Assembly: GCF_034720595.1 (NCBI RefSeq)
Contig: NZ_JAYESJ010000002.1
Coordinates: 36,370 to 100,369 of the forward strand
Direction: 5' to 3'
Length of the DNA: 64,000 bases
DNA from: Rhizobium sp. CC-YZS058
GTDB taxonomy: Bacteria; Pseudomonadota; Alphaproteobacteria; Rhizobiales; Rhizobiaceae
Shown piece after piece: positions 4,810 to 63,612 of this stretch (position 1 is the stretch's first letter; each line of letters begins with the position of its first letter). Under the pieces are notes generated by a model. It made no database searches. It saw only the letters and a list, made by a program, of their open reading frames with translations, and was not told where the DNA came from. The position numbers and the translations under genes were made by a program.

Positions 4810-5112
4810 CTACACGCTCGCGCTTTTCGCAACACGCACATGCTCGACCAGCGGCGGCGCGGCAAAGAAGCTGCCTGCGGCCGCCCGCCATTTCTGGAAA
4901 TCGTCCGAAGCCCGGAAGACCACCATATGATCCTCAAGCGTTTCCCAGTCGACCACGAGATAATAGGTGGCCGACTCTTCGATCGACCGTTCGAACCGCA
5001 CGCCTTTGCAGCCCTTTGCCGCCAGAAACAGCGGAGCAACGTCTTCAAAGATATCGTTGAACGCGTCGGCCAGTTCGGGCTTGATGGAAAGTCTTGCGCG
5101 CTCGATGATCAT
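4810..5112 (-). CDS. Antibiotic biosynthesis monooxygenase (ABM) fold protein
   Basis: A 100-residue protein of the ABM dimeric alpha-beta barrel type. It starts MIIERARLSIKP and keeps the family pattern of a VRFERSIEE strand, a YYLVVDWETLEDH strand-helix and a C-terminal helix ending in PPLVEHV. Family members include quinol monooxygenases and small catabolic isomerases or monooxygenases. Its start codon overlaps the cupin stop (ATGA), so the two are probably made together. Role here: a small accessory enzyme of the catabolic operon, otherwise unknown. Confidence 0.8.
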   Translation of the reverse strand: MIIERARLSIKPELADAFNDIFEDVAPLFLAAKGCKGVRFERSIEESATYYLVVDWETLEDHMVVFRASDDFQKWRAAAGSFFAAPPLVEHVRVAKSASV

Positions 5113-5519
5113 GGCGTCTTCTTTCCATGTTCCGCATCGATCGTGCGTGTTTCGCCGCTGGCGATCATCGTGCGGGTGGCATCGACCGATGCGTAGGTCC
5201 AGAAGATGCGCATTGGCTCGCTGTCCGACGCATTGATGAACCTGTGCGGTACGTCGGCCGGAATCCAGGTCGTATCGTTTGCTTCCAGCCTGTGCTGCAC
5301 ACCGTCGATCTCGGCAATCGCGGTGCCATCGAGCACCATGACGCTTTCTTCGCAATTGTGCTTGTGGAGACCGATCGCCGCTCCCGGATCAAATGCCGTG
5401 ATGCCGTTGATCATGCTGGTCGAACCACAACCGCGTGTGACGAGCGGCGTCGTTCGGGCGCCGCCGCCGCGGTCATTGGTTTTGAGTTCCTTTGGTCGAA
5501 GAATGGCTGCCTGTTTCAT
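5109..5519 (-). CDS. Cupin domain-containing protein
   Basis: A 136-residue single-domain cupin. The metal-site region is visible as GLHKHNCEESVMVLDG, with His, His and Glu ligands, followed by a PADVPHRF segment holding the third histidine. Such proteins act as small metal-dependent isomerases, dioxygenases or sensors. It sits between the aldehyde dehydrogenase gene (upstream) and the ABM gene (downstream, overlapping by 4 bp), so it belongs to the catabolic operon. No specific reaction can be assigned. Confidence 0.85.
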   Translation of the reverse strand: MKQAAILRPKELKTNDRGGGARTTPLVTRGCGSTSMINGITAFDPGAAIGLHKHNCEESVMVLDGTAIAEIDGVQHRLEANDTTWIPADVPHRFINASDSEPMRIFWTYASVDATRTMIASGETRTIDAEHGKKTP

Positions 5520-46792: not shown

Positions 46793-46879
46793 GACCAGGC
46801 AAGCTCCTCGATCGAACAAAATCAACGTGTTCGTCAGGAGCGGAGGGCCCCGCCAGGGCCCGAAAGCGAAGCGTCGCAT

Positions 46880-46930
46880 CAGCGACGTATAATTGCGCCC
46901 TTCGGATCCGTCCTTGCGAACGGACGGGAT
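46880..46930. other. oriT, Ti/RSF1010-type origin of transfer
   Basis: On the minus strand the segment 46880-46905 reads GGGCGCAATTATACGTC with flanking bases, the conserved nick region of Ti-type and RSF1010-type oriT. Next to it is a hairpin (CCGTCC / GGACGG around TTGCGAAC, 46906-46930). It lies between the divergent traA and traC operons, exactly where oriT sits in Agrobacterium plasmids. Confidence 0.9.
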
Positions 46931-47347: not shown

Positions 47348-47563
47348 ATGAGCAGGAACGCAACGTCCGACGCCCGGAAGAAGGACACGCGCGACAAGAT
47401 CGAGCTCGGTGGCCTCATCGTCAAAGCTGGTCTCCGGTTCGAGAAGCGGGCGCTTCTGCTCGGCGCATTGATAGACCTGCAGCGCCGGCTGAAGTCCGAC
47501 GGCCATGAGCGATCACGATTGACGGCGATCGGGGCGGAGGCTTTCGGCAATGAAGGCGAATAA
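47348..47563 (+). CDS. traD: Conjugal transfer protein TraD
   Basis: A 71-residue protein with the family core [20 protein letters not shown] followed by [12 protein letters not shown]. TraD of Ti-type plasmids is a small conserved helper of the coupling protein; its exact role is unclear. It starts 4 bp after traC and overlaps traG by 14 bp. Confidence 0.9.
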
Positions 47564-49484
47564 GATCGTTCTCGTTCTTATGCCTGTGGCCATCATGGGC
47601 GCGGCTCTGTTCGCTCTCACCGGCATCGAGACCTGGCTTGCCGGCTTCGGGAAGACCGAGGCGGCAAAGCTTGCACTTGGTCGCGCAGGGCTCGCAGCAC
47701 CCTACATAGTGGCGGCTGGGCTCAGCCTGATATTGTTGTTTGCTACAGCTGGATCGGCAAGCATTCGCGCCGCAGGCGTCGGGGCTGCGATCGGAAGCGC
47801 TGCGGTCATCTTGATGGCTTGCTTGCGGGAAGGCGTGCGACTTGCAGCGCTTTCCTCCCAGGTACCAGCGGACAAATCCGCGCTGTCCTATCTGGATCCA
47901 TCGACCATGATCGGCGCTGCTGCAGCACTGATGTCCGGCTGCTTTGCAGTGCGCGTGGCAATCGTGGGCAACGCCGCTTTCACACCGGCCGCACCGAAAC
48001 GCATCACTGGCAAACGCGCCTTGCACGGAGAGGCCGATTGGATGACCTTAGTCGAAGCCGACAAGCTGTTCCCGACAACTGGCGGCATTGTGGTCGGCGA
48101 GCGGTACCGTGTCGACCGCGACAGCGGTGCCGGCGTTTCGTTCGGTGCGGATACCAGCGAGACGTGGGGTGCTGGGGGCAAGTCTCCGCTGCTCTGCTTC
48201 GACGGATCGTTCGGCTCCTCCCACGGTATCGTCTTCGCTGGATCGGGCGGCTACAAGACGACCTCCGTCACGATCCCGACGGCTCTGAAATGGGGAGGCT
48301 CGCTCATTGTGCTCGACCCTTCCAACGAAGTCGCGCCCATGGTCTCGAGGCATCGCGAGGGGGCAGGGCGGCGGGTCAGGATCCTCGATCCACGCAAACC
48401 CGCGACCGGCTTCAACGCCCTCGACTGGGTAGGTCAATTCGGCGGTACGAAGGAGGAGGACATCGCCTCTGTCGCATCATGGATCATGAGCGATAGCGGT
48501 CGCGCGAGCGGGGTCCGAGACGACTTTTTCCGTGCCTCAGGCTTGCAGCTCCTGACGGCGATCATCGCCGATGTCTGCCTGTCCGGGCACACACCCAAGG
48601 AGCAGCAAACGCTGCGCCAAGTGCGCAGCAATCTGTCGGAACCCGAGCCGAAGCTGCGACAGCGCCTGCAGGATATCTACGACAATTCGGAATCGGAGTT
48701 CGTGAAGGAGAACGTCGCCGCCTTCGTCAACATGACGCCCGAGACCTTCTCCGGCGTCTATGCCAACGCGATCAAGGAAACGCATTGGCTTTCGTACCAG
48801 AACTATGCAGCACTTGTGTCGGGATCGACATTCCGAACCGAGGATATCGCGTCGGGCAAAACAGACGTGTTCATCAATATCGACCTGAAGACGCTGGAGA
48901 CCCACAGCGGATTGGCGCGCGTCGTGATCGGCTCGTTTCTAAACGCGATCTACAATCGCGATGGCGCGATGGATGGCCGCGCCCTCTTCCTCCTCGATGA
49001 GGTCGCCCGCCTTGGCTACATGCGCATTCTGGAGACCGCGCGCGATGCCGGTCGAAAGTATGGCATCACGCTGACGATGATTTATCAATCGATCGGCCAA
49101 TTGCGCGAAACCTATGGCGGGCGCGACGCCTCCAGCAAGTGGTTCGAGAGCGCAAGCTGGATCAGTTTCGCGGCCATCAACGATCCGGAAACCGCCGATT
49201 ACATCTCTCGCCGCTGCGGCATGACGACGGTCGAGATCGATCAGGTCAGCCGTAGCTTCCAGTCGCGCGGGTCGTCGCGGACGCGCTCGAAACAGCTCGC
49301 AGCCCGGCCACTCATCCAGCCACACGAAGTGCTGCGCATGAGGGCGGACGAGCAGATCGTGTTCACGGCAGGCAATCCGCCGCTGAGGTGCGGGCGTGCC
49401 ATCTGGTTCCGTCGGAAAGATATGACAGCTTGCGTTGAGCGAAGCAGGTTTTTGCCGCGCGAAGCGCCAGCCCATGAACAATGA
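47550..49484 (+). CDS. traG: Type IV coupling protein TraG (VirD4 family)
   Basis: A 644-residue ATPase that links the TraA-DNA complex to the Trb channel. Several N-terminal membrane helices (about residues 7-140) are followed by Walker A (GSGGYKTTS, about 231-239) and Walker B ([11 protein letters not shown], about 478-488). Length is normal. Last gene of the traCDG operon. Confidence 0.95.
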
Positions 49485-49653
49485 AGAGCATCGGAGAAAT
49501 CAGCATAGCGACGACCGCCAGGGCGTGATTTCGGGAATTCTCGTCATGCTTCGGTCGGATATGGGGCAGCCGCAGGAGGCTTAGCATAGCGCCGCGTTAG
49601 CGGAAGCCGGGACCGACTGTCCCCGACCGAGGCATTCTGCTTCAGAAAGCCGT

Positions 49654-49875
49654 CTACTCGTCGGAGACCCCTTCGGTCAGTCCGTCGAAAACCTCCATCA
49701 TCGCGTTGGTGATGGCTTGGCCGAGAGCGTTGCCAGCGACGCGAACGTCGTCCTCAGAGCCATCGCGAGCAGCACGCGCAAGTTCATACCCCTGATCCGC
49801 GACAATCTGCTTGGCCACCTCGATCGCCCAGAGACCGAAGTCCCCGCGGTTACCAATCTGGATTTCGTCTTCCAT
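49654..49875 (-). CDS. Small hypothetical protein
   Basis: A 73-residue soluble protein starting MEDEIQIGNRGDFGLWAIEV. The ATG at 49875 follows GGGAGACG; longer versions would start without a ribosome site. It is acidic and probably helical, with no known domain that I recognise. It stands alone, convergent with traG, so its role is unknown. Confidence 0.6.
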   Translation of the reverse strand: MEDEIQIGNRGDFGLWAIEVAKQIVADQGYELARAARDGSEDDVRVAGNALGQAITNAMMEVFDGLTEGVSDE

Positions 49876-50320
49876 CTGCGTCTCCCGAAATTGGCTCGCC
49901 GGCTTCTTTTCATGGGCGTTGCGCAATGACAAGCGCAAGGCACCGACGTGGAGCGGCGACACCAACGCGATGGGCACTAACGAACTTACGCATGCCGGCC
50001 GAACGATGTTGCTCACCTGCAATATACGGCCATCCGTTTTCGGCCCAAATCAGTCACTGGTCGTCGCAAATATCACTCTCAAAACACTGGCTTGTGCGAG
50101 TGATTTTCGCGACGAAGATTTCCCTGAAGGTTCAATCTTGGTGCTTTTGTCGTGGAATTTAGGACTTACGCGACATCCAAGCTCGTGTCCAAGTTGACAA
50201 GTACATTGGGCGTAGGTACGAGCAGATCAGCAGTCACACTGCCGTAGGCGTTACCGTCATCCAACGCAGCCTTGCCGAGAGGACCCCCGCTGGGAGATCT
50301 CGGTCCTCAAGGAGATCGAG
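49876..50320. other. Intergenic region before the MFS exporter gene
   Basis: No convincing gene in 445 bp. The left end is the promoter side of the small minus-strand protein. The right end leads to the MFS gene, whose ribosome site (AAGGAGAT) is visible just before 50321. Confidence 0.5.
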
Positions 50321-51508
50321 ATGACGATTAATTACGCCGTATCCAGCGATACGAAACCAACAGTTTTTTCCGCAATAGCACCTGTCGCCACCGCGGTGTT
50401 CCTGGGCTTCCTGGCCGCCAGCATGCCTCTGGCCGCTCTGCCGCTCGAAATGGGCGGTCACCTGAAGGCAAGTCCTACGACGATCGGCATGTTGATCGGC
50501 CTCCAGTCTGTCGTCACCGTCTTGACCCGTCATCAGGCCGGAACCCTTTGCGACCAGCGCGGTCCCCGCTTTGCCGCCATGGTCGGCCTGCCGCTGGCCG
50601 CCTGCTCCGGCATGGCATATCTCGCCGCGGGACTGTCCAGCATCACAGGATTGAGTATCGCGCTCCTTTTGCTTGGCCGGATTTTCATGGGCCTCGGTGA
50701 AAGCCTGTTCCTGACGGGTCTGATGAGCTGGGGGATTGCGCGCGTCGGAGCGGCGAAGACCGGCAAGGTGATGTCGTGGTCGGGCATCGCGATCTATGCG
50801 GCGCTCGGCCTTGGCTCGCCGATCGGCCTTGCGTTGCAGTCCCGTTATGGGTTTTCCGCCGTCAGCGCGATGACCGTCGTTGCTCCCGTAGCAGCATGGC
50901 TCATCGCCATGAGGCTGACGGCCGTACCGGCATCCGGCGGCCAACGCGTGCCGTTTCATCATGTGATAGCGTTGATCTGGAAGCCAGGCCTTGTTCTGGC
51001 CCTGGCGACTGTTCCCTTCGCCGGCATGGTCTCCTTCCTCGCCCTGGCCTTCGAGGCTCGCGGCTGGTCGCAGGCGGGGCTGGCGCTATTCGGGTTCAGC
51101 GCGGCCTATATCCTGGTGCGCCTGGTGGCCCCTGGTCTTCCCGATCGTTTTGGCGCTGCGCCGGTTGCGATTGGTTGCCTGGCAGTTGAGGCCCTTGGAC
51201 AAGCATTGCTTTGGGCAGCGCCTGTTCCCGGCATCGCCGTCATGGGCGCAACGCTGACCGGTCTCGGGTTTTCTCTGATATTCCCGGCCATGGGCGTTCT
51301 CGCCACCAGCTCCGTGCCGGCCGAACAGCGCGGACGGGCCGTCGGAAACTTCATCGCCTTCGCCGATATTGCCCTGGGCGTCACGGCACCGATCGTCGGC
51401 CTTGCCGTCTACTCGGTCGGAGCAGCCTCGCCTTTTATCGTCGGCACAGTCGCGACATGCCTCGCGCTCTGCGTCCTCTCCTCCACGCGACTGCCTCGAG
51501 CCGCGTAA
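50321..51508 (+). CDS. MFS transporter
   Basis: A 395-residue major-facilitator protein with about twelve membrane helices. The loop motif between helices 2 and 3 is recognisable but altered (RHQAGTLCDQRGPRFA, usually GxLaDrxGrR). The profile is that of small-molecule drug/sugar efflux permeases. AAGGAGAT precedes the ATG. It is followed 89 bp later by an SDR gene on the same strand, possibly co-transcribed. Substrate unknown. Confidence 0.88.
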   Translation: MTINYAVSSDTKPTVFSAIAPVATAVFLGFLAASMPLAALPLEMGGHLKASPTTIGMLIGLQSVVTVLTRHQAGTLCDQRGPRFAAMVGLPLAACSGMAYLAAGLSSITGLSIALLLLGRIFMGLGESLFLTGLMSWGIARVGAAKTGKVMSWSGIAIYAALGLGSPIGLALQSRYGFSAVSAMTVVAPVAAWLIAMRLTAVPASGGQRVPFHHVIALIWKPGLVLALATVPFAGMVSFLALAFEARGWSQAGLALFGFSAAYILVRLVAPGLPDRFGAAPVAIGCLAVEALGQALLWAAPVPGIAVMGATLTGLGFSLIFPAMGVLATSSVPAEQRGRAVGNFIAFADIALGVTAPIVGLAVYSVGAASPFIVGTVATCLALCVLSSTRLPRAA

Positions 51509-51597
51509 GGCACGCCCTTCTCCCGTTCAAAACCAACCGTGAACCGCGTTCGGCCATGCGCCGGGCAAATTCCTGTAACCATCGAAAGGAAACGACA

Positions 51598-52353
51598 ATG
51601 AAAACCACCGGTAACACGATCCTCATCACCGGCGGCACCAGCGGCATCGGCCGAGCCTTGGCTGAAGGCTTCCACGACCTTGGCAATCGCGTCATCGTCA
51701 CCGGACGCCGCCAGGATCTGATTGCGGAGATCGCCGATGACCGTCCCGGTATCGCGGGTTTTACCGCCGACATGACAGATCCTGCTTCCGTTACGAAGCT
51801 CGCTGAAGACGTCCGTGCGGCATTTCCCCAGACCAATGTCCTGATTGCCAATGCAGGCATCTCGCGGACGGAGGATGTGACGTCGGACGAGTGGGACGGC
51901 TCAGACGCGGCGGCGATCGTTGAAACCAATATCCTTGGGGTTCTCCGCGTCACGGCAGCCATCCTGCCCATCCTCAGAGCGCAATCCGCCGCCACGATCA
52001 TGGCGACAAGTTCCGCACTGGCCTTCCTGCCGCGGGCGGATTTCCCGACCTATTGTGCCAGCAAGGCCTTCCTGCACTCGTGGCTAACCTCGCTGCGCCA
52101 TCAGTTGCGCAGGACATCGGTCGAGGTTCTGGAACTGTCCCCGCCATATGTTCAAACCCAACTTACCGGCGCCTCGCAGGCGGCGGACCCGCGTGCCATG
52201 CCGCTATCGGACTATGTCGCCGAGGTGATGGGGATGATCGGGCGTGGCGACCATCCGCGTGGCGAGCTGTTGCTCGAACGGGACCAAGCCCGCCGCTGGG
52301 CCGAACGCGATGGCACATACGACAGCATTTTTGCTGCCATGAATGCATCTTGA
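51598..52353 (+). CDS. Short-chain dehydrogenase/reductase (SDR family)
   Basis: A 251-residue classical SDR that transfers hydride with NAD(P). TGGTSGIG (about residues 11-18) is the cofactor site, NAG follows near 88, and the catalytic Ser (ATSSALAF) and Tyr-x-x-x-Lys (YCASK, about 158-162) are intact. The opening MKTTGNTILITGGTSGIGRA resembles DltE-like short-chain oxidoreductases. AAAGGAAAC precedes the ATG. Physiological substrate unknown. Confidence 0.9.
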   Translation: MKTTGNTILITGGTSGIGRALAEGFHDLGNRVIVTGRRQDLIAEIADDRPGIAGFTADMTDPASVTKLAEDVRAAFPQTNVLIANAGISRTEDVTSDEWDGSDAAAIVETNILGVLRVTAAILPILRAQSAATIMATSSALAFLPRADFPTYCASKAFLHSWLTSLRHQLRRTSVEVLELSPPYVQTQLTGASQAADPRAMPLSDYVAEVMGMIGRGDHPRGELLLERDQARRWAERDGTYDSIFAAMNAS

Positions 52354-52419
52354 GGGGTAGAAGGTCGTAGGGCCTACCAGCTCTACGATCACTTCGGGGC
52401 ATCTTTTGCGGCGGGCACA

Positions 52420-52440
52420 ATGTCCGGTGTTGGCGCGAAG
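52420..52440. repeat. 21-bp direct repeat, left copy
   Basis: The 21-bp sequence beginning ATGTCCGGTGTTGG and ending CGCGAAG is repeated exactly at 53667-53687. The two copies bracket the LysE-AsnC gene pair. Confidence 0.8.
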
Positions 52441-52474
52441 CGGAAGGCCGCCCTCGGCCCAAACCGGTCATCGG

Positions 52475-53089
52475 CTAACGCTGTGCAGATGCCATGAACC
52501 CAGCGGCCAGCAGGATCATTCCGCCCGCCGTGCCGTCGATCAGCCGACGCTTCTTGTCACTGAGATTGCCACCGCCGAGACGGGATAGGGCTAGGCTCAG
52601 GATCGTGTAGACGACGCCGTACCAGAACATGAAAGCAAGCGACAGAGTTACAGCCTGCAGGGTCACATTGCCCTGATGGTCCATGAATTGGGGGAGGATG
52701 GCGACATAGATCATCATGCCTTTGGGATTCAGGAGCGCCGTCAAGAAACCCTTCGAAAGCTGATTCTCGACCTTCCGTCCGGACACGGTAATGCCATGAG
52801 ACTGCATGGCTGATCTGATGAGCGTGTAGGCGAGGTAGAGCAGGTAGGCGATGCCGATCCATCTGATCGCCTCGAACAGCACGGGAGAGGCGGCGACGAC
52901 GGCGGCAAGTCCAAGGGCGACCAGAAGGGAATGAACGCCGTAGCCCAGCACCACGCCGAGCGTTGCCCGCAGCCCTGCTTTTGCCCCCCCGGACACGGCC
53001 TGGGACGCGATGAAGAGCATGTCAGGACCAGGCGTGCAGATCAGCGGCAGAACCGTGGCGGAGAAGAGGAGAAGCAGATGTGTGTTCAT
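52475..53089 (-). CDS. LysE/RhtB-family amino-acid exporter
   Basis: A 204-residue inner-membrane exporter. The N-terminal ICTPGPDMLFIASQAVSGG carries the TPGP motif of the RhtB/LysE family, and LNPKGMMIYVAILPQF is the second conserved loop; about six hydrophobic helices are visible. The gene is divergent from an AsnC-type regulator, the classic pairing for sensing and export of an amino acid. The ATG at 53089 was chosen because upstream in-frame sequence does not match the family. Confidence 0.92.
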   Translation of the reverse strand: MNTHLLLLFSATVLPLICTPGPDMLFIASQAVSGGAKAGLRATLGVVLGYGVHSLLVALGLAAVVAASPVLFEAIRWIGIAYLLYLAYTLIRSAMQSHGITVSGRKVENQLSKGFLTALLNPKGMMIYVAILPQFMDHQGNVTLQAVTLSLAFMFWYGVVYTILSLALSRLGGGNLSDKKRRLIDGTAGGMILLAAGFMASAQR

Positions 53090-53185
53090 GCCGATGTTGT
53101 ATCGCGACGTGAGCGCAATCGGGTTGCTAATATTGCTGATAAAGCAGATATTTTGGCATCGACTGCCAATGAAGGGTGTATTTTC

Positions 53186-53650
53186 ATGATCTACAAGCTC
53201 GATGAGATCGATAGGCGCATCCTGAAAGCTCTTCAACGTGACGGCAGGATGCAGAACATCGAGCTGGCCAAGGAGGTCGGCCTGTCGCCTTCCCCTTGTC
53301 TTCGGCGCGTGAAGGCTCTGGAGGAAGCAGGAGTAATCAAGCGATACGTCGCCGTCGTTGATCAGGCCAAGGTCGGCCTTCCTTTGTCGATGTTCGCGCG
53401 CGTCTGGCTCACGGCGCAGGATGCCGAGACAATCGACCTTTTCATCGCGGCAATGCGGCGTCTCCCAGAGGTGGTCGAATGCTACATCATGCTTGGGGAA
53501 AGTGACGCGCTGCTGCGCGTAGTTGTCGCCGATCTCGACGACTACCGTCGTTTTCAGTCCACGCACCTGACGCGGAAGAACGGTATTCAGTCAGTGAAGA
53601 CGGATGTTCCGAGCGAGGTCATCAAGCAGACGTTTGCACTTCCTGTTTGA
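53186..53650 (+). CDS. Lrp/AsnC-family transcriptional regulator
   Basis: A 154-residue regulator with an N-terminal HTH (LDEIDRRILKALQRDGRMQN then LSPSPCLRRVKALEEAGVI) and a C-terminal RAM ligand-binding domain (VVECYIMLGESDALLRVV). It lies divergent to the LysE exporter and probably controls it in response to the exported amino acid. Confidence 0.93.
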   Translation: MIYKLDEIDRRILKALQRDGRMQNIELAKEVGLSPSPCLRRVKALEEAGVIKRYVAVVDQAKVGLPLSMFARVWLTAQDAETIDLFIAAMRRLPEVVECYIMLGESDALLRVVVADLDDYRRFQSTHLTRKNGIQSVKTDVPSEVIKQTFALPV

Positions 53651-53666
53651 ACGCGGAGCAATTACC

Positions 53667-53687
53667 ATGTCCGGTGTTGGCGCGAAG
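53667..53687. repeat. 21-bp direct repeat, right copy
   Basis: Exact copy of the sequence at 52420-52440. It starts 17 bp after the AsnC stop. The interval between the copies is about 1.2 kb. Confidence 0.8.
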
Positions 53688-53896
53688 GAGCCGTACCTAT
53701 TGCTCGCGGGAGGATCGTGACCCGAATGGGCGAAGACCGCCTGCGGGCTTCGTTCGCGCCAGCGAATAGAGCCGCACGCCGAAGGCGGACCGACCGAATT
53801 CATCCGCATCTCCACATCACGGAAATGAATCAATGGCGTCCGAGCGATTCAAAACTCTCGTTGGACGGCAGTTTCGGGAAGCGTGATCATGCCGGA

Positions 53897-54723: not shown

Positions 54724-54897
54724 TTAGGTCCGTCGGTTCCAATCGGTCTCGAAATTCACCTCGATATCAACGAAGAACGGGATCTTGATCGCGATCTTCA
54801 AGCCGAGCTTGCCCTTGCGGAAAAAGTGACAGATCACCTCGGCGAGGGTGCGGAGGCGGCGGCCGGTTGCAGTCAAGAACTTGGCGAGCTGTTGCAT
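54724..54897 (-). CDS. Small basic hypothetical protein
   Basis: A 57-residue protein beginning MQQLAKFLTATGRRLRTLAE, preceded by AGGAGAAATCAT. It is basic with a hydrophobic middle (LGLKIAIKIPFFVDIEV). No family recognised. The clear ribosome site is the main support for it being a gene. Confidence 0.5.
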   Translation of the reverse strand: MQQLAKFLTATGRRLRTLAEVICHFFRKGKLGLKIAIKIPFFVDIEVNFETDWNRRT

Positions 54898-55160
54898 ATG
54901 ATTTCTCCTGTCGATTGCGTTTCGTCGCGGGGATGAAATGCGGATCGGGAAGGAGCGCCGCACCGGGACGGCCGCAGCGCAGCGGAGGACCTGACGACGG
55001 CTGAATTTTGCTGCGCGAGGAGCCGAAGGCGGGGAAAATTCTGCCGGCATCAGGTTGCGGCGGGACGCACGATCCGCATCATTCCCTATGTCGATGAAAT
55101 GGGATCGACAGGAGAATTGCGGCAGCTCGACTTCGAAGACGACGGACGATGGAAGCCGCC

Positions 55161-55331
55161 TCAGAAGGGCGGTTCGCTTTCCGCAAGACCGTCCAGCTCG
55201 GCGGCAGCGACGATCAACTCCGCCTGGGCGATGTCGAGTTCGGCCTCGATTTGACGGCGCTCGGCGCCATCGACAGCGTTGCGGAGCTCGGCCCGCAGTT
55301 CTTCGATCTGGATTTCGAGTTCGTAGGTCAT
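55161..55331 (-). CDS. Small helical hypothetical protein
   Basis: A 56-residue acidic protein, MTYELEIQIEELRAELRNAV onward, strongly predicted to be helical or coiled-coil from its heptad-like Leu/Ala/Glu pattern. A good AAGGAGACG ribosome site precedes the ATG. Function unknown; it lies 321 bp downstream of the first DUF736 gene on the same strand. Confidence 0.6.
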   Translation of the reverse strand: MTYELEIQIEELRAELRNAVDGAERRQIEAELDIAQAELIVAAAELDGLAESEPPF

Positions 55332-55651
55332 CTTCGTCTCCTTGACGTTTGTGAAAGATGACCGACCGGTCCGAGAGGGGATGGCGGGGTCAGGGATCGC
55401 GCCAGCGACCGGCAGAGCCGGGGAGTGGGGGAGCCGATTTGCGGAAGCTGCCCTCAAGGGCTGGTGAAACAAATTGGGGGAACCGCTCATCCTTGAGGCC
55501 GGCGTCGCCGCTTGGCACAATCATGCATTCTGAGCAGCTTCCCCGCTCACCGTATGCCACCAAAAAGCCGGGCCTGGCTCGATGCCAGATCCGGCTTTGA
55601 TCTCTCGGCAGGAGAGAAGGCCCCGCCGATGGCGGAGCCTCGTGATCCTGA

Positions 55652-55960
55652 TCAGTCGCGGTTCGGGCGGGACCAGATGAGCTGTAGGCCATCTTCGCCT
55701 TCGACCTCGGCGAGCGTTGCGTAGATCGGGGCAGGGAAGCTCGGATCGTCGAGCTTGACCGAGAGGTAGTCGCGGCCTTGCTCGGAGGTCTTCTGCCAGG
55801 CGGCGCCGAGCTCGACGCTTCCGGCATAGACGCGGAACTGCGGGCCCTTGTCGGAGGGGTTCTCAACCCGCGCGATGCGTGCCTTGACGTTGAGGGCAAG
55901 CGTGCGAATGGAGCCGGTGAAGCCGTTCTTTTCGGAGGTGAAGGTGCCGATGGTTGCCAT
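55652..55960 (-). CDS. DUF736 family protein (copy 1)
   Basis: A 102-residue protein, [20 protein letters not shown] onward, with the DUF736 core [20 protein letters not shown] and [20 protein letters not shown]. Function of the family is unknown; it is very common on rhizobial plasmids. It differs by a single residue (Asp for Glu near the C-terminus) from copy 2 at 60419. It lies inside the left 564-bp repeat. Confidence 0.92.
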
Positions 55961-56215
55961 TGTCGTATTCCTTTTCTCGTGTTCGGGCCGCGCCCATCGC
56001 GGCCTCGATGGCAGTCGACAAGACCGGAGACGATCGAACCGCACCCAATAGGGCCGCAATGCAATGGAGGGCGGCAAGTCGCAGATTTGTTAGTGGGCGA
56101 GGAGGGGACCGCAGGTCGTCGGGGTAAGAAATCTAAGCCTTGTCGTTGCGGGAAGACGATCGAGGCGCAGCCGGTCTCCGGTCAGACATGCCCCATCGAG
56201 CCCGCAGATGGAGCC
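55652..56215. repeat. 564-bp direct repeat, left copy
   Basis: This segment, the DUF736 gene plus about 255 bp upstream of its start, is repeated at 60419-60982 with only scattered single-base differences and no length change (constant offset 4,767 bp). The copies bracket the S8 protease/AAA ATPase genes. Homology stops abruptly at both edges. Confidence 0.9.
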
Positions 56216-56217
56216 AC
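56144..56217. repeat. Conserved 74-bp upstream element, copy 1
   Basis: Runs from CGTTGCGGGAAGACG to GATGGAGCCAC, about 180-250 bp upstream of the DUF736 start. Copies occur at 60911-60982 (72 bp) and 62965-63038 (3 mismatches in 74). See the findings. Confidence 0.75.
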
Positions 56218-56306
56218 GGTGATGGGCAAAGGAATCTGACGAGAGCTGGGCCTATTTCGACCAGGTCCCAGCGTCACATCAGGCTTTAGTGACACGCTTT
56301 GCGGCT

Positions 56307-58838
56307 TCACGGCGAAACGCGTTGCGGCGGTCTGGGCTGTATCCGGGCACGAACCTCGTCGTATAGACGCAGTTCTCCGGGCATTTCGAGCGAGACGGCC
56401 AACCCGAACGGCACGGCTTCGTCGACCGGACCACCAGGATCAGGCTCACGCTGGATTTTGAGCGTGATCGTCATGCCCTCGGCGACGACGGCCGCTCGGT
56501 CGCCGCCCCAATGACGGGTGAACACCGTGCCGCGATTGGTCTGGTTCTGGTCGGGCTGGCTCCCCGAACCCTTCACGGCCAGATCGGTCATGTCGTCAGG
56601 CGCTAGGATTTTCATCTTGACGCCGCGATAGGATTTTCGACCTGGAAGCACGGGCGTGAACCAGGCGAGTGTTGCCGAAAAAGAATGAAAGCGGGCCTGA
56701 CCGCCCATGACGGCGGGGATCGGAACGACGACGTCGACACTGCGCTCGCGCGCGAGATCGCCCACACACCAGAAAGTGGCGCGATCGGATGCGCAGGAGA
56801 CAGCGTCGTCCGTGTCGTAGACGCCGTAACCGAAGAACCTGCGGATATTGTCTTTCTGGCGCGACGCCTGACCTTGACCGAACGGGCCGACCAGCCTCTT
56901 GACCAGAGCCGCAGCTTCTTGCGGCCATCGGGCAGGATGCACGAGAAGTGCCTTGATCAGCACTGCGCGATGCGTGCCCGACAGGTTCAGAAAGTCGGCG
57001 CCGTAAGCTGTTTCCAGCGCGTCATGGATCCGATGGGCAGTACGTGAGGCGAGCGCCGTTGCAGCGCTTGTTCCATTGGTGAACGCTTCTGCCCCCTCCA
57101 TGCCAGGCCGTGGCGGCGCCGCAACTTTGAGGCCGGCACCACGAGCGGCCCCTGCAGGAATGACGACAATACCACCTCCACTTCCGACAACGCGAAGGTG
57201 TTCTCGTGCGGCAGGCATCAGGATGTCAGGTTTGACAGAATCGGCAAAACCCGGACCGAGTGCACTCGATGGATTGGCGGTGTCGAGCTGCGTGTACGGG
57301 TTCACATTGGCGCGCGCCAGCGCCCTGTCCGCCGGGGTCACCCAGTCCAGGTTTCGGCCACCCACGGTCAGTCCGTTGACGGTCTCTGACGGAGAGAGCA
57401 GTCGCCGGTCCGCGACGAGCGCGGCAATCGCGTTGACAACACCTTCGGCCCGCACGCCATGGACCGCGTCTTCGAATGCGGCGCGGGTTTGGAAAGCGGG
57501 TATCGGGAAACTGGATGTCACGTTTCCCGCGCTGACGAGAAACAGGATCCCGAACCGATAGGCCAACCGGTCCAGAAGGCGCGCCCATGGTGAAAGCTGG
57601 CCATGGAATGGCCGACGGGTATTGCCAAGCGAGATGTTGACGATGATGACCCAGGGCGCCGACGGTTGCGGGCCGCCGCGCATTTGCACGACGGCCTGAT
57701 AAATGAGATCAACGATCAGCCGGTCCGTAGGGAAGCGATCGTTGTTTCCCATGACCGGAATGCAATGGACCTGGCGGGGAAGGGATGCCTCTGGCCGGTT
57801 GCGATCGCCATGAACGATCAGCGAGGCCATAGCAGAGCCATGCACGCGTTCGGACACGAGTGCATCGGGTTCCAGACCGAAATGATCCTCGACGTTCAGA
57901 TGTCTTCGCAGGAGGGGATGGCTTGCCACGGGCACGCCGTCGAGGAGGGCAAGGATCGATGCCGGGCTGACGGGGTTCTCCGTGACGGGCGCCAATGGTG
58001 CGACGATGTCATTGGCCTCGATGCCGGTGACCACACTTTGCGGCCGAATATGCATGATCGGCTCGACGCCGGCGAGACTTCCCGGATCTCTGGCTATCAC
58101 CATCCGGATTGCGGCCACTGGGATTTCGGCGAGAATAGCATGATAGGCGATGTCGTCGATCCGAGCCCGATGGATCGTTCGTCCGCCTGCCTGGGCAACC
58201 GCCTGCACGACCGCCGTTTCGCTGACCACGGCAGCACTGCCTGCGGCGCGGAAAATCAACTCGATTTCGAGCGCGACAAGCTCTCCGTCCTCGCGGCCGT
58301 CAATCTCCTCCTCAAGGATCTGCGCGTCCAGCGGCTGCACACGATCTGCCGGTCCCCAGACGCGCAAGTCGCGAAGGCACCCGAATACATCGCGCCACGG
58401 CGTGTAGCCCGTCGGAAGAGCCTGGCCCGCAAGCCAGTTGCGCCAGAGAGACAGGATCTGCCTCAACGCAACAAGGTCAGGAACGAGAAGGTATGCGAAA
58501 GGAGCCTTGTCATCGTCGCTCGGGAGTTCCTCCTCATCGATCAGCTCGAGGCCGGGCACCCGATTGATCGCACTGGCAAAATTGGCGATATCGCCCTTCA
58601 CCTCGAAGACGAGCAGCCGCTCCGGCGCGAGCGCCGTTGGATCGGCGCGAAGGGCGAGGCCGCTTGGGTCCCTCTGAAGGACGTCGGCGAGACGCTGGAA
58701 TGTTGGGGTGAATTGCTGATCTTGCCGTTGCCGACCGAACGGTTCAGGCTTCTGTATGTTTGCCTGTCGGCCGGTTTGCCTTGGAGCGGATGCGCTTGGG
58801 CGCAGTCTCAGTATCGGTTTGCTCGGATCGCTCGCCAT
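56307..58838 (-). CDS. S8 (subtilisin-like) serine peptidase, cytoplasmic, AAA-partnered
   Basis: An 843-residue protease with a complete subtilase triad: Asp300 (ALLDGVP), His333 (RVHGSAMAS) and Ser591 (NGTSAATA). The first 290 residues form an extra N-terminal domain of unknown type and the last 220 a beta-rich C-terminal part. No signal peptide or membrane helix is seen, so it should act in the cytoplasm. It is translated after an AAA ATPase whose gene overlaps it by 95 bp. Such a pair would let the ATPase gate or feed the protease; a defence or cell-suicide role is an inference. Confidence 0.85.
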   Translation of the reverse strand: MASDPSKPILRLRPSASAPRQTGRQANIQKPEPFGRQRQDQQFTPTFQRLADVLQRDPSGLALRADPTALAPERLLVFEVKGDIANFASAINRVPGLELIDEEELPSDDDKAPFAYLLVPDLVALRQILSLWRNWLAGQALPTGYTPWRDVFGCLRDLRVWGPADRVQPLDAQILEEEIDGREDGELVALEIELIFRAAGSAAVVSETAVVQAVAQAGGRTIHRARIDDIAYHAILAEIPVAAIRMVIARDPGSLAGVEPIMHIRPQSVVTGIEANDIVAPLAPVTENPVSPASILALLDGVPVASHPLLRRHLNVEDHFGLEPDALVSERVHGSAMASLIVHGDRNRPEASLPRQVHCIPVMGNNDRFPTDRLIVDLIYQAVVQMRGGPQPSAPWVIIVNISLGNTRRPFHGQLSPWARLLDRLAYRFGILFLVSAGNVTSSFPIPAFQTRAAFEDAVHGVRAEGVVNAIAALVADRRLLSPSETVNGLTVGGRNLDWVTPADRALARANVNPYTQLDTANPSSALGPGFADSVKPDILMPAAREHLRVVGSGGGIVVIPAGAARGAGLKVAAPPRPGMEGAEAFTNGTSAATALASRTAHRIHDALETAYGADFLNLSGTHRAVLIKALLVHPARWPQEAAALVKRLVGPFGQGQASRQKDNIRRFFGYGVYDTDDAVSCASDRATFWCVGDLARERSVDVVVPIPAVMGGQARFHSFSATLAWFTPVLPGRKSYRGVKMKILAPDDMTDLAVKGSGSQPDQNQTNRGTVFTRHWGGDRAAVVAEGMTITLKIQREPDPGGPVDEAVPFGLAVSLEMPGELRLYDEVRARIQPRPPQRVSP

Positions 58839-59814
58839 TCAGAATTTCCGGTCCCACGCGTGTGGCCCAGAGGTCTAGCTCTGAACGCAGAGCGTCGTCG
58901 ATAGAAAGCTCCCCCAAGCCAAGTATCTGCCTTCTTCGCACGTTTTGGCAGAAATCCAAAGCCTCGGCGTAACTTACGGTACCCAGTTTTCCACTGATCG
59001 TCTTCGATGTGGCCTTGGGCAGATCTGGCCATTGCGCGATGATCCGATTGAGAAAGCCTTCGATGCGCCAGCGGTCCGGCGCGGGAAAGCCCAGTCGCAT
59101 CTGAAAGCGGCGCCACACGGCACGGTCCAGGAGCTCGGCATGGTTGGTCGCCGCCATCACCACGACATAGCTCGGAAGCTGGTCGAGCTGCATGAGCAGA
59201 AAAGAGACGACGCGCTTGATTTCTCCGGTCTCGTGGGTATCGCCTCTCTCCTTGCCAATGGAATCGAACTCGTCAAAGAAGAGCACGCTTGGCCGGGTTC
59301 GCACATAGTCGAATAGCTTGCGCAGGCGGGCGTTTGTCTCGCCAAGGTAGCTGCCGATCAGCGCATCGTAACGCACGACGAAGAAGGGAAGTCCGAGAGA
59401 TTCCGCTATTGCCTCGGCGAACGACGTCTTGCCATTGCCCGGCGGCCCAGACAGGAGTACGCGGTGTCGCGGCTCATAGCCATGGGCGCGCAGGACGTCC
59501 GCCCTGACATGTTCTTCGATCAGTTGCCGCCCGCCCTGCTCAACGGGCAGTGGCAACATCAACTGATCGAGCTGGATACGGGGCTCGAGTTCGAGGATCG
59601 TATCTTTTCCGGATCCGCTCTGGGACGAGTTGGAGGTCAGGGCAGGGGGTGTCACACTGACGGCGGCAAGCGCACGCTCAAGGCGATCGGCAACGCCGTG
59701 GTGGTTTTTTGCACGTTCTTCGGCAACCAGCGCTTCGGCGGCCGACTTGAGGGTCGCGCGATCGCCGGCTGCTCCAGCCCTTACAAGGGAGATAAGAAGA
59801 TCGCTGCGGGCCAT
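58744..59814 (-). CDS. AAA-family ATPase paired with the S8 peptidase
   Basis: A 356-residue single-AAA protein. After about 110 N-terminal residues come Walker A GPPGNGKT (123-130), pore-loop-like YLGETNARLRKLF (about 156-168), Walker B VLFFDEFD (177-184), the sensor asparagine in MAATNH and arginine finger region DRAVWRRF. The layout resembles FtsH/Vps4-type unfoldases without a protease domain; the protease may be supplied by the next gene. The last 30 codons overlap the peptidase start in another frame. Confidence 0.88.
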   Translation of the reverse strand: MARSDLLISLVRAGAAGDRATLKSAAEALVAEERAKNHHGVADRLERALAAVSVTPPALTSNSSQSGSGKDTILELEPRIQLDQLMLPLPVEQGGRQLIEEHVRADVLRAHGYEPRHRVLLSGPPGNGKTSFAEAIAESLGLPFFVVRYDALIGSYLGETNARLRKLFDYVRTRPSVLFFDEFDSIGKERGDTHETGEIKRVVSFLLMQLDQLPSYVVVMAATNHAELLDRAVWRRFQMRLGFPAPDRWRIEGFLNRIIAQWPDLPKATSKTISGKLGTVSYAEALDFCQNVRRRQILGLGELSIDDALRSELDLWATRVGPEILNGERSEQTDTETAPKRIRSKANRPTGKHTEA

Positions 59815-60418
59815 GTCCTCACTGACTTTTCGTTTCCCATTTGTTCACTTTTCGAATCTTATCGCAAATAGTTTATAAAGTCTTCTTGTGCCAGCGCGAG
59901 GCTCTTAGAAGCGCTCGGTTATACATGCAATCAGATTGCTTCCGCGGCACGAAAACAACAACGTCTCGCCATGTCCGTCGTTCCGCTCGTCCATCGATGC
60001 GGGAACCGCCAGTTCCAGCGAGGGACGCGAAACAAAGCCAGGCAGGCGATCCGTCATTCTTCATCGAAACCATCCGCATCTGATCAGCCGCGCCGCAGCG
60101 GAGAATTCCGATGTCGTGGAGTTTCCCCTTTCTCCGACCTGCACGGCAACCTGATGATTGGTATCTACGGCGAACTACCTTGTGAGTGGATTTGCCATCC
60201 GGCTCAATGCGGTACTTCTTCGAGGTTCTCGAGAGAGGAATCGAGGTCGTCACCTCGACGTGGGAGAGGTGCCAGCATTTCTCCAAGGTCAACAGACCTC
60301 TCGAGGAGGACGAAGCTCTCCCATTGCTCCCCGACTTCGCAAACCGCACGGCTCGGCTACGGCCCTCGAGGGCCTTGAGTTTGGTTCGGCCCCGCTCTTG
60401 GAGCGAGGCCGGCTTCGT
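59815..60418. other. Non-coding region between AAA gene and second 564-bp repeat
   Basis: About 600 bp with no credible gene on either strand; short open frames lack ribosome sites and family match. The 59840-59890 AT-rich stretch is a likely promoter for the AAA-peptidase operon. The rest may be cassette-internal spacer or a decayed gene. Confidence 0.5.
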
Positions 60419-60727
60419 TCAGTCGCGGTTCGGGCGTGACCAGATGAGCTGGAGGCCTTCCTCGCCCTCGACCTCGGCAAGCGTTGCGTAGATCGGGGCC
60501 GGGAAGCTCGGATCGTCAAGCTTGACCGAGAGGTAGTCGCGGCCTTGCTCGGAGGTCTTCTGCCAGGCCGCGCCGAGCTCAACGCTTCCGGCATAGACGC
60601 GGAACTGCGGGCCCTTGTCGGAGGGATTTTCAACCCTGGCGATGCGTGCCTTGACGTTGAGGGCGAGCGTGCGAATGGAGCCGGTGAAGCCGTTCTTTTC
60701 GGAAGTGAAGGTGCCGATAGTCGCCAT
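60419..60727 (-). CDS. DUF736 family protein (copy 2)
   Basis: A 102-residue DUF736 protein identical to copy 1 except for one residue (VEGEEGLQ instead of VEGEDGLQ). The near identity at DNA level shows recent duplication or ongoing gene conversion. Function unknown. Confidence 0.92.
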
Positions 60728-60910
60728 TGTCGTATTCCTTTTCTCGTGTTCGGGCCGCGCCCATCGCGGCCTCGATGGCAGTCGACAAGACCGGAGACGA
60801 TCGAACCGCACCCAATAGGGCCGCAATGCAATGGAGGGCGGCAAGTCGCAGATTTGTTAGTGGGCGAGGAGGGGACCGCAGGTCGTCGGGGTAAGAAATC
60901 TAAGCCTTGT

Positions 60911-60982
60911 CGTTGCGGGAAGACGATCGAGGCGCAGCCGGTCTCCGGTCAGACATGCCCCATCGAGCCCGCAGATGGAGCC
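60911..60982. repeat. Conserved upstream element, copy 2 (72 bp)
   Basis: Second copy of the element at 56144-56217, at the right edge of the 564-bp repeat; similarity stops after GGAGCC. Confidence 0.75.
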
Positions 60983-61124
60983 TCGGGAATTGCGTAAGAG
61001 AATATGGCTTTGGCGGCGTGCGCTGGATAGACCTCGGATATCGACCGAACGTACTGCCCCATCCCATCGCCACCTGTTTTCCTGGCTGGGCTGTAGGAAC
61101 GCGGGTGGATATCCAACGCAGCTC

Positions 61125-61158
61125 TTTGCGTGCCCAAAAATGATTGCTATATTTGGGC
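61125..61158 (+). promoter_or_regulatory. Promoter with palindromic operator for the toxin-antitoxin operon
   Basis: TTTGCG (61125-61130) and TATATT (61148-61153) are spaced 17 bp. GCCCAAA (61132-61138) and TTTGGGC (61152-61158) form a perfect dyad that overlaps the -10 box. The antitoxin ATG follows 17 bp later. This arrangement suits autorepression by the antitoxin or complex. Confidence 0.65.
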
Positions 61159-61175
61159 AGCAGGTTGGAGCAGAC

Positions 61176-61418
61176 ATGGCCAAAGTCGTCGTCAAGAAGT
61201 TCGGCAATTCCAAAATTGGTGCGCGTGATACCGCGGTGACGCAGAAGCGCGTGCGGGATGGGGACAGCGGTCAGTTCATGACTGTTCGAACGATCGATGC
61301 GCAGAGTAAGACGCTCGGGAAAGATCTGAGCTATGTTTTTAGCAAGAATGTCGATAAGGCGCGCCGTGACAACAAGGCTGTAACCGGCGTGCGTGATCGT
61401 GCTCCCGTCCAGGACTGA
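61176..61418 (+). CDS. Putative antitoxin of a zeta-type toxin pair
   Basis: An 80-residue basic protein, MAKVVVKKFGNSKIGARDTA onward, with a GGAG site before the ATG. It contains no epsilon or PezA HTH region that I can recognise. Its last 26 bp overlap the start of the zeta-like kinase gene, the order and spacing expected of an antitoxin-toxin operon. The antitoxin role is inferred from position only. Confidence 0.6.
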   Translation: MAKVVVKKFGNSKIGARDTAVTQKRVRDGDSGQFMTVRTIDAQSKTLGKDLSYVFSKNVDKARRDNKAVTGVRDRAPVQD

Positions 61419-62010
61419 GCAGCCAGTTTTCCTGATCATCGCAGGGCCAAACGGATCAGGCAAAAGCAGTGTATACGCGAATGCCGACCTGGAAATGGAA
61501 GGTCGATCCGTCTGGATCGTAAATCCCGACCTTCTCGCTGCGCGTATCAGCAGGGTAGAGGCTAAGCCGCTCCTTGAAGCCAATCTCACCGCGGTCCAAC
61601 GCATCGAGGCATGGCTCGAAGCCTCGATCAGTGTTCACAAGACCATCGGCGTCGAGACGGTCTTGTCGACCGCCAAGTACCGACGGCTTGTGGAAGCGGC
61701 CAAAGCACTCGGATTTGCAATCTGGTTTCTATATGTCGTGCTCGACAGCCCGGAACGCTCGATCGAGCGGATCAAATTTCGGGTGGCCAAAGGCGGGCAC
61801 CCGGTACCAGACGAGAAAGTCCGCCAGCGTTACCAGAGATCCCTGGAGCAATTCCCCTGGTTTCTCGAGCAGGCGGACAAGGCCTGGATCTGGGATAATA
61901 GCGGCGCAAGTCCAAAGACGATTGGCGAAAAGTCAGACGGGATCATCGAACTCGACGAGAACGCTCTTAAGGTCATCGCCAGAGCGGTCCAGTCGATCGC
62001 GACCGAGTAG
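61393..62010 (+). CDS. Zeta-toxin-like kinase
   Basis: A 205-residue P-loop kinase starting at GTG. Walker A is AGPNGSGKSS (about residues 16-25), followed by VNPDLLAARI and a GVETVLST segment similar to the substrate-binding part of zeta/UDP-GlcNAc kinases, then FLYVVLDSPERSIERI. Zeta toxins phosphorylate UDP-N-acetylglucosamine and block cell-wall synthesis. It overlaps an unusual small upstream gene that probably neutralises it. Function as a plasmid-maintenance toxin is likely but inferred. Confidence 0.82.
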   Translation: MIVLPSRTEQPVFLIIAGPNGSGKSSVYANADLEMEGRSVWIVNPDLLAARISRVEAKPLLEANLTAVQRIEAWLEASISVHKTIGVETVLSTAKYRRLVEAAKALGFAIWFLYVVLDSPERSIERIKFRVAKGGHPVPDEKVRQRYQRSLEQFPWFLEQADKAWIWDNSGASPKTIGEKSDGIIELDENALKVIARAVQSIATE

Positions 62011-62078
62011 CTGCCATCGCCGGCATAAGAAAAGGGTCGCACTGGCGCGGCCTTTTTCAATCGTCGCGATTGACGAGT

Positions 62079-62216
62079 TTAAAGCCCACGGACGAGGCTG
62101 CGGATGTTCCCACGCGCGACGCCGATGTCGTTCAGGACGCGGTCGTCAAGGACAGAAAGCTCGCGAATAGCGCGGCGCTCTGCAATGGCTCTCTTCAGCC
62201 GTTCAGCGATTTTCAT
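62079..62216 (-). CDS. DUF1127 family protein
   Basis: A 45-residue protein matching the short DUF1127 pattern: ERLKRAIAERRAIRELSVLD then RVLNDIGVARGNI. AAGGTGAG precedes the ATG. In alphaproteobacteria short DUF1127 proteins affect RNA turnover, phosphate response and growth. It stands alone, so its role here is unknown. Confidence 0.88.
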   Translation of the reverse strand: MKIAERLKRAIAERRAIRELSVLDDRVLNDIGVARGNIRSLVRGL

Positions 62217-62470
62217 GTGACTCACCTTTGCAATTTTGATGATGAGTATATGTGCAATTCTTCGCACAAAAAGAAGGCATATGCTTGCAGGGAAGGCATG
62301 CGCAATTGGCGGGGCTGGTAAATCGGCGCCATTTGTGTTGCCCTCGGTGCGAAAGTGCGCGTGCCATTGGCTCGTACTGCCATTCAAAGAGCGGCGAGCG
62401 GCTCAATACCTGCCTGCGGCTTGAGTCTGGGCCAAGGGGCAAGCCCCGCCTTGCGGCAGGGCCGATGTCC

Positions 62471-62782
62471 TCAGTCCCTGCTCGGGCGGGACCAGATCAG
62501 CTGGTAGCCGTCTTCACCTTCGACCTCCGTCAGGGTGGCGTAGATCGGAGCGGGGAAGCTCGGGTCGTCGAGCTTGACCGAAAGGTAGTCGCGGTCGGTT
62601 TGCTCGGAGCGCTTCTGCCAGGCGGCGCCGAGTTCGACGGCTCCTGCAAAGATGCGGAACTGTGGACCCTTGTCGGAGGAATTTTCGATGCGGGCAATGC
62701 GGGCCTTGACGTTGAGGGCGAGAGTGCGGATCGAACCGCTAAAGCCGTTCTCGGTAGAGGTGAAGGTGCCGATGGTAGCCAT
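62471..62782 (-). CDS. DUF736 family protein (copy 3, diverged)
   Basis: A 103-residue DUF736 protein, [20 protein letters not shown] onward, about 85% alike to copies 1 and 2 by eye, with an extra residue in [11 protein letters not shown]. The upstream leader is diverged except for the 74-bp element at 62965-63038. Function unknown. Confidence 0.9.
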
Positions 62783-63234
62783 TGTCGCATTCCTTTTTGC
62801 TCAATCGGGCCGCTCCAGTGCGGCCTCGATGGCAGTCGCACAGGCCGGGGACGATCGGGCCGCACCTGACAAGGCCGAAACACCGTGGAGGGCGGCGTGA
62901 AGACACTTTCTTGTTTCGCGAGGAATGCCGGCGGAGCCGGCAGGGGATGAAAGTTTCAGAGCGCCGTTGCGGGAATACGATCGAGGCGAAGCCGGTCTCC
63001 GGTCAGACATGCCCCATCGAGCCCGCACATGGAGCCACTGTCAGACGGAAAAGGGATACGACCATGGCGATCCGCACGGGAAACCCCAGCGCGAATGGCC
63101 TCAGCCAACTCCAAGCACCTGTGCACGACGGACGGAAGATGCGCTGCACCATTGTGGCAAACTCCGACCAGGTCCGCTTGCGTGAAGACCATGCCGGGAT
63201 AGAGTTGCACCGCGATTCGTCGCCTGGAGGAACA
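62783..63234. other. Leader region of DUF736 copy 3
   Basis: About 450 bp without a supported gene. It holds the third copy of the 74-bp element. An ATG at 63064 with an AAAAGGGA site opens a frame that runs into the small protein at 63235; this could be its true start. Confidence 0.45.
62965..63038. repeat. Conserved 74-bp upstream element, copy 3
   Basis: Matches copy 1 (56144-56217) at 71 of 74 positions, while the DNA between it and the DUF736 gene has diverged far more. That contrast suggests selection. Confidence 0.8.
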
Positions 63235-63450
63235 ATGCCAAAGCAGACCAAGCCGTTTATCGTCGAAATCAAGCAGTCCCGGAAGCTGAAGCCCGACACC
63301 CGGAAACCGTCGATCTGGGGCAACCTCGATTTGAAACTGGCTCCTGACGATCGTCTCGAAGAGCCCCGTCGTCGGGATGCAGTGGACCGGGACACCGTCG
63401 GTGCGACCCGCTCGACGCTGCATCAGACTCCACCCGACAGCGCAGTCTAG
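63235..63450 (+). CDS. Small hypothetical rhizobial plasmid protein
   Basis: A 71-residue basic protein, MPKQTKPFIVEIKQSRKLKP onward, with GGAGG five bases before the ATG. It has no recognised domain, but a similar opening occurs in small hypothetical proteins of rhizobial plasmids as I recall. An in-frame ATG at 63064 would give 128 residues. Confidence 0.55.
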   Translation: MPKQTKPFIVEIKQSRKLKPDTRKPSIWGNLDLKLAPDDRLEEPRRRDAVDRDTVGATRSTLHQTPPDSAV

Positions 63451-63460
63451 CCATTTTGTA

Positions 63461-63612
63461 TGGACAAATTTGTCCAGGACATCTGGCTATACTCCAGCAT
63501 CCTCTTTCCGCTGATCCTATATCGGGATTGCGTTCTACTTCAGTGGACATCTCTGCCCAGATCGGACCGGGTCTTGAACGTCCACACGTATGCCCTCATA
63601 TGTCCATACGTG
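63461..63612. promoter_or_regulatory. Operator cluster upstream of the terminal HTH gene
   Basis: TGGACAAATTTGTCCA (63461-63476) is a perfect 16-bp palindrome. The half-site TGGACA recurs at 63544 and as TGTCCA at 63601, and CACGTATG / CATACGTG (63585-63612) form another dyad. The cluster lies in the promoter region of the gene starting at 63688 and probably binds its own product or a plasmid repressor. Confidence 0.6.

Follow-up and report, generated by a model that had tools for sequence, protein, structure and literature searches.

DUF736 repeats around an IetAS-type protease/ATPase pair in Rhizobium as a possible leading-region docking module for toxin and defence cargo

A 64,000-nt stretch of DNA from Rhizobium sp. 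CC-YZS058 (the window, i.e., the rightmost 64 kb of a contig of 100,369 bp) carries an array of three direct repeats, each made of a DUF736 gene and a long conserved hairpin, with a subtilisin-like protease/AAA ATPase pair in the first interval and a zeta-type pair in the second. The protease and ATPase match a module that already has a name, IetAS, and the pair itself is ordinary; what appears new, at least to us, is the repeat, which we read as a structured leading-region module that docks toxin or defence cargo. No earlier account of a DUF736 leading-region dock was found in the literature searched.

We propose that this repeat belongs to the leading region of Ti-type conjugative plasmids, as a module composed of the DUF736 gene and the hairpin directly upstream, and that it may work as a docking site from its place between oriT/traCDG and ardC. 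Cassettes joining a toxin-antitoxin or defence unit to a DUF736 module would come and go through homologous recombination at the module already in place, a route that we infer and that would leave direct repeats behind; here, uptake of IetAS and of the zeta-type pair would have produced three modules. On the transferred single strand, the hairpin could serve as an Frpo/ssi-like promoter or initiation site, with the presumed benefit that DUF736, ArdC, and neighbouring genes would be expressed soon after entry. The DUF736 dock and the hairpin are well supported by the comparisons reported below, and we give about an even chance to the whole model, that is, a leading-region dock, an IetAS toxin-antitoxin, and a hairpin working on single-stranded DNA.

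To our knowledge, it is mainly for F-like plasmids that expression of leading regions from single-stranded DNA has been described. If the model is true, early expression would become testable in a second, unrelated plasmid group, the Ti-type one, including the well-studied p42a of Rhizobium etli, which has one DUF736 gene at the dock site. It would also give a context to the large DUF736 family (5383 proteins found), which has no known function, and would show plasmids keeping a variable toxin/defence slot next to oriT.

Three DUF736 modules frame two cargoes

Self-comparison of the window revealed two direct repeats, D1 (55652-56215) and D2 (60419-60982), whose starts lie 4767 bp apart and which share 546 of 564 bases. 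The two near-identical, same-direction 564-bp repeats of the preliminary description are thus real, and for a repeat of this length a chance origin is ruled out. All 18 mismatches fall within the DUF736 gene, at 55670-55955; positions 55956-56215 of D1 equal D2 without a mismatch, and similarity stops abruptly from 56216. The DUF736 genes of D1 (55652..55960, 102 aa) and D2 (60419..60727), both on the minus strand, match Pfam PF05284 at about 118 bits each, which confirms the DUF736 gene claimed for each repeat. The conserved hairpin elements, drawn on the plus strand, follow at 55961..56215 in D1 and at 60728..60974 in D2.

The two-copy picture of the preliminary description holds for D1 and D2 but had overlooked a third copy, D3 (62471-63069), which brackets a second cargo. 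D3 runs on the same strand, is 72-85% identical depending on the segment, and contains a minus-strand DUF736 gene (62471..62782, 103 aa; PF05284) and a plus-strand hairpin element (62783..63028). The array therefore reads D1-[IetAS]-D2-[zeta kinase]-D3, and a whole-genome search (E <= 0.001) returned three DUF736 genes, all of them in it.

The second cargo, on the plus strand, comprises a 79-aa ORF (61179..61418) and a zeta-toxin-like P-loop kinase of 205 aa (61393..62010; start codon uncertain; Pfam Zeta_toxin, 1.1e-9). Conserved with the kinase in three other arrays (L083, L112, and L126), the small ORF, for which no Pfam match was found, is the probable antitoxin of the zeta-like kinase. 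An HU-like gene follows the zeta pair in L083, L125, and L126.

The array lies in a probable leading region

Homologues of traA and traG are present in the window. Between traA (minus strand) and traC-D-G (plus strand) we located a candidate oriT (46871..46905, plus strand), an imperfect inverted repeat followed by ATAATTGCGCCCT, which can be read as a nic region of the RSF1010/Ti type. In the window this sequence has two mismatches to the nic motif, and a match of that quality is, taken alone, no rarer than expected by chance over 64 kb. The exact oriT-like 13-mer occurs in 57 of 80 related loci, and in 56 of the 58 that have both traG and traA it lies at most 119 bp from the start of the traA match; these loci are the best 80 of at least 545 confirmed relatives, chosen by similarity to D2. 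The TraG-like coupling protein gene (47550..49484, plus strand; annotated traG in relatives) marks the start of the leading side.

In the same 80 loci, ardC precedes DUF736 in the same direction in 57, traG follows DUF736 in the opposite direction in 62, and traA lies beyond traG in 59. All four genes kept this order and these directions in 44 loci, many of the others stopping at contig borders, and in none of the 80 was traG found on the opposite side of DUF736. The DUF736 module accordingly sits between oriT/traCDG and ardC, its genes facing the oriT given by the motif. The window ArdC has ArdcN and metallopeptidase domains, and ardC is followed by parB-like, helicase/methylase, DUF1419, and DUF3991-Toprim genes. 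Two small conserved ORFs on the minus strand, hyp57a (54724..54897; 'hypothetical protein' in relatives) and hyp56b (55161..55331), with coordinates that are approximate and come from alignment to the ZX09 locus (L122), each have a structured upstream region.

If the motif is read as nic, the transferred strand is the plus strand, with the DUF736 side going in ahead of the rest; the T-strand would then be the template of DUF736, IetAS, and ardC, which share one common strand. On this reading of the motif, the DUF736 repeats are probably in the leading region, the stretch that enters a new cell first. The segment between traG and WGR (49500-53700) holds genes resembling those for an SDR, a LysE-type exporter, and an Lrp/AsnC regulator, as judged by eye from the ORFs.

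Empty sites and exchange of cargo

Single-copy plasmids with the same flanks were sought as empty sites, and a single DUF736 gene between array-type flanks was indeed found in ZX09 (L122), S. mexicanum (L124), R. etli p42a (L141), and BT04 (L145), the records of the p42a and BT04 plasmids having a second matching place elsewhere. Relative to L124, A. cucumeris (L123), with a Fic cargo, duplicates 4885-5471, and R. etli Mim1 (L126), with a zeta cargo, duplicates 4885-5475; in both cases the duplicated unit is the hairpin plus the gene. Compared with ZX09, the window is 90.8% identical over the left flank and D1, 94.1% over D2, 79.8% over D3, and 85.5% beyond the array. The two modules of Rhizobium sp. 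C104 (L144) are 99.5% identical over 611 bp of a 620-bp comparison, and p42a is its single-copy counterpart, with flanks at 91.2 and 87.7%. Between these near-identical modules (L144 4274-5851) lie two unrecognised genes of 177 and 304 aa, the latter product with a weak DUF5713 match under the cut-off; they were inserted recently and may form a novel pair of defence or toxin genes.

Counting partial copies, 21 of the 80 loci had two or more DUF736 copies, every one in direct orientation, a fraction that is no natural rate because the loci were picked by similarity. The 23 intervals between copies held Fic (10), an RKPK198/SyrB-like pair (4), zeta (2), an ArdC/WGR remnant (1), or nothing that matched a query (6); RKPK198/SyrB-like is our name for a pair that was not otherwise recognised. 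Hence, the expectation that DUF736 repeats flank different cargo on other rhizobial plasmids was borne out by Fic, zeta, and the RKPK198/SyrB-like pair. The Fic protein between the repeats of other plasmids scores as SoFic (PADLOC, 162 bits), a candidate defence system that is an alternative cargo there and is absent from the window. One interval (L051) has a hairpin element at 3940-4203 that adjoins no DUF736 gene, together with a group II intron reverse transcriptase.

The strongest competing explanation, which we place somewhat below an even chance, regards the repeats as by-products of duplication and gene conversion near a rearrangement hot spot: leading regions would collect cargo, and DUF736 would offer passive homology. 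Repeat borders do vary (about 777 bp for L144 versus L141, 587 bp for L123 versus L124), IS110, a group II intron, and ardC/WGR remnants occur in or beside intervals, and some second copies are short or decayed, as in L074, L075, and L119, where copies are just 101-148 bp apart and one is partial or diverged. Against this, the same module is repeated across genera with different cargo and with all copies found direct. Composite transposons likewise place two direct repeats around cargo, but the DUF736 repeats have no transposase, and plasmids with just one copy at this site are common.

The protease/ATPase pair matches IetAS

The first cargo consists of a subtilisin-like (S8) protease (IetS; 56307..58838, minus strand, 843 aa) and an AAA ATPase (IetA; 58744..59814, minus strand, 356 aa), adjacent, with the ATPase gene first and overlapping ietS by 95 bp. 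They are alone between D1 and D2, as described before, in that no other genes were recognised there. The catalytic residues D300, H333, and S591 are where the preliminary description had put them, and the partner is an AAA ATPase with GPPGNGKT as its Walker A motif (residue 123) and DEFDS at residue 181, so that both triad and Walker A are intact. IetS (Peptidase_S8) matched the PADLOC profile PDLC04233 at 888 bits (residues 3-839 on positions 3-850 of 855), and IetA matched PDLC04232 at 470 bits (residues 1-323 on 1-323 of 330). These matches agree with the earlier proposal that protease and ATPase form an intracellular defence or toxin pair and overturn the view that it is not a named system: by profile similarity, the pair is IetAS, an already named toxin-antitoxin/anti-phage module. 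A pair in Rhizobium sp. Pop5 has the same 95-bp gene overlap and a protease 83% identical. With the known representatives (pTiC58, SGI1 S026-S025, mycoplasma TA132/3; PADLOC IetA/IetS), the window pair shares both proteins, the ATPase-then-protease order, the catalytic triad, the Walker motifs, and the location on a conjugative plasmid.

IetAS may act here as a toxin-antitoxin in which the AAA ATPase restrains the subtilase toxin, and such an action would stabilise the plasmid and possibly abort phage infection. Passages of PMC5006074 and PMC8562856 assign the toxin role to the subtilase and the antitoxin role to the ATPase in IetAS relatives, and on the stability and incompatibility of pTiC58 they refer to Yamamoto et al. 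2009. That the pair is primarily anti-phage rather than a plasmid-stability module is plausible, yet we lean against it. PADLOC calls both proteins IetS/IetA, and the NCBIfam models that they match bear anti-phage names. However, the scores on these IteA/IteS anti-phage equivalogs (64.8 of 900 and 208.5 of 510 bits) are far below the curated cut-offs, which sets the window pair apart from the named anti-phage systems; in the passages just cited the relatives behave as toxin-antitoxin pairs, and the title of the cited work names pTiC58 stability and incompatibility.

Across the 151 genomes of the family, IetS occurs in 11 (E <= 1e-30, fragments counted) and DUF736 in 90. No DUF736 relatives were found in the 11 other IetS stretches searched (six of them just 4-5.6 kb long), and among these DUF736 repeats flank only the window pair. 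IetAS is therefore not tied to the DUF736 platform, since most IetAS pairs, in the stretches covered, have no DUF736 gene nearby. The preliminary description had made its platform idea depend on repeats around the pair and on empty sites: the pair does occur elsewhere without flanking repeats, but empty sites exist, and because they do the platform idea stands. Among the neighbours of IetAS at other sites are VapBC pairs and a multiubiquitin/ThiF cluster, and a pTi plasmid carries one IetAS pair. Flanking direct repeats are likewise reported for a mycoplasma IetAS-type pair, in a passage of PMC5006074 or PMC8562856.

As for individual loci, IetAS adjoins a multiubiquitin/ThiF/DUF6527 cluster on a Neorhizobium galegae plasmid (L127 2439-8532). 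One genome (G064), the single further instance encountered of the two in proximity, is a counterexample to the separation of IetAS and DUF736, with a distant DUF736 match at C1:7135470-7135775, about 5 kb from a split ietS at C1:7127877-7130421; this match falls outside the stretch used in the search of IetS neighbourhoods. More distant DUF736 genes (G042:C13, G016:C3, G064:C1, and others) often lie two by two on one strand, at a spacing of about 5.5 kb, and may belong to ICEs.

A conserved hairpin precedes DUF736, with apparently structured upstream regions at other genes facing oriT

Read on the plus strand, the region upstream of DUF736 in the window folds into a ~230-nt hairpin, the far arm of which is kept in 91 of 100 copies. 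In a covariation set of 27 sequences less than 88% alike, the consensus comprises 74 pairs with 95.7% of cells paired. Double-change cells, in which both sides of a pair have changed, numbered 116, against 39.2 (sd 5.0) in shuffled alignments, none of 500 shuffles reaching 116, and against 15-25 in slid structures, a comparison that favours the actual fold in that it was predicted from the test alignment itself. The argument lies in the margin, not in the shuffle count, because related rows can also exceed shuffles. No Rfam family matching the hairpin was found.

Profile matches to the element occur directly upstream of ardC in 15 of the 80 loci, covering the first ~120 positions and weak (E 1e-6 to 5e-4). 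A separate consensus hairpin, in which 13 pairs covary, was obtained for the region upstream of ardC, just 76% of its cells being Watson-Crick. We surveyed further upstream regions in the same manner. Those of DUF736, ardC, a 196-aa ORF, ParB, and two small ORFs gave 69-81 pairs with z from -9.6 to -21.4, and 60-151 double-change cells versus 21-59 in shuffles. Values for traG (z 0.6), SNase (-0.4), and hyp104 (-0.9) were near zero, and traA, with the oriT region, reached -5.4. Controls also exceeded shuffles in double-change cells (37 versus 25 for traG, 37 versus 20 for hyp104), and the z-score is unreliable at low identity, as a recA control gave -8 and -16 with only 9-15 pairs. The survey favours, without proving it, the idea that structure is a particular property of genes facing oriT. 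The region upstream of WGR, on the other strand, scored -10.2 although it faces away, which may be a low-identity artefact.

A possible single-strand role for the hairpin

We examined which strand of the element is likely to fold. Over the 67 pairs common to both fold directions, G-T cells outnumbered A-C cells by 153 to 104 (31 versus 16 pairs; p=0.04 with kinship ignored), an excess that did not reach significance on a smaller alignment and leans weakly to the T-strand or to an RNA of the same sense. With DNA parameters, both strands of 30 sequences folded equally stably (mean z -2.15 and -2.25). A consensus scan of both strands at 55000-63500 found no sigma-70-like promoter, against 1.6 expected, other promoter types being outside its reach. 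The zeta and RKPK198/SyrB-like pairs could not be read from the T-strand because they are directed away from oriT.

Action on the transferred single strand, in the manner of Frpo/ssi, is the likeliest but an unproven role of the hairpin. Frpo/ssi promoters and the T-strand coding of leading-region genes are described in PMC11541004, in the main text of which DUF-, ArdC-, and Agrobacterium-words were not found. The similarities are a long imperfect hairpin in front of genes for which the presumed T-strand would be the template and several structured upstream regions per leading region, beside an anti-restriction gene. On the other hand, no -35/-10 consensus was found at 55000-63500, the likeness is one of structure and position, and the plasmids compared here are alphaproteobacterial MOBQ ones as opposed to F-like ones. 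We tentatively suggest, as a possibility that falls short of an even chance, that the element represents an unrelated class of single-strand promoter or initiator, proper to the conjugative plasmids of rhizobia and agrobacteria, with the ~230-nt hairpin before DUF736 and structured relatives before ArdC and other early genes, and that the DUF736 copy doubles as a cassette dock at which toxin-antitoxin and defence modules would come to sit next to an early-entry module and could be gained, lost, or swapped during conjugation.

We consider doubtful, though it deserves weight, that the hairpin is instead a regulatory RNA, either a plus-sense leader or antisense or the leader of the DUF736 mRNA, unrelated to single-stranded DNA. 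Covariation cannot separate RNA from single-stranded DNA, G-T cells are expected to exceed A-C cells for a plus-sense RNA too, and in many copies the alignments show a start codon with an RBS-like stretch on the plus strand after the element. The D1 element, however, faces the 3' end of ietS, with no recognised gene to lead on its plus side; in L122 the two genes on either side of the region upstream of ardC point the same way, so that a plus-sense RNA there would be antisense; Rfam gave no match; and a DUF736 mRNA leader alone is weakly disfavoured by the G-T/A-C count. Finally, it is highly improbable that an integrase inserts the cassettes by integron-like recombination at a hairpin recognised as folded, attC-like single-stranded DNA: as in integron cassette arrays, direct repeats with a long palindromic element separate cargo genes, but no integrase is among the annotated genes of L006, L123, L126, and L144 (from an incomplete gene table), the repeated unit includes a whole gene, and the duplicated borders differ between arrays with no fixed point, as far as BLAST borders, imprecise on diverged DNA, can place them.

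A subset of the copies (e.g., L042, L049, L081, L083, and L100) carries extra GC-rich mini-hairpins at two loop places of the element.
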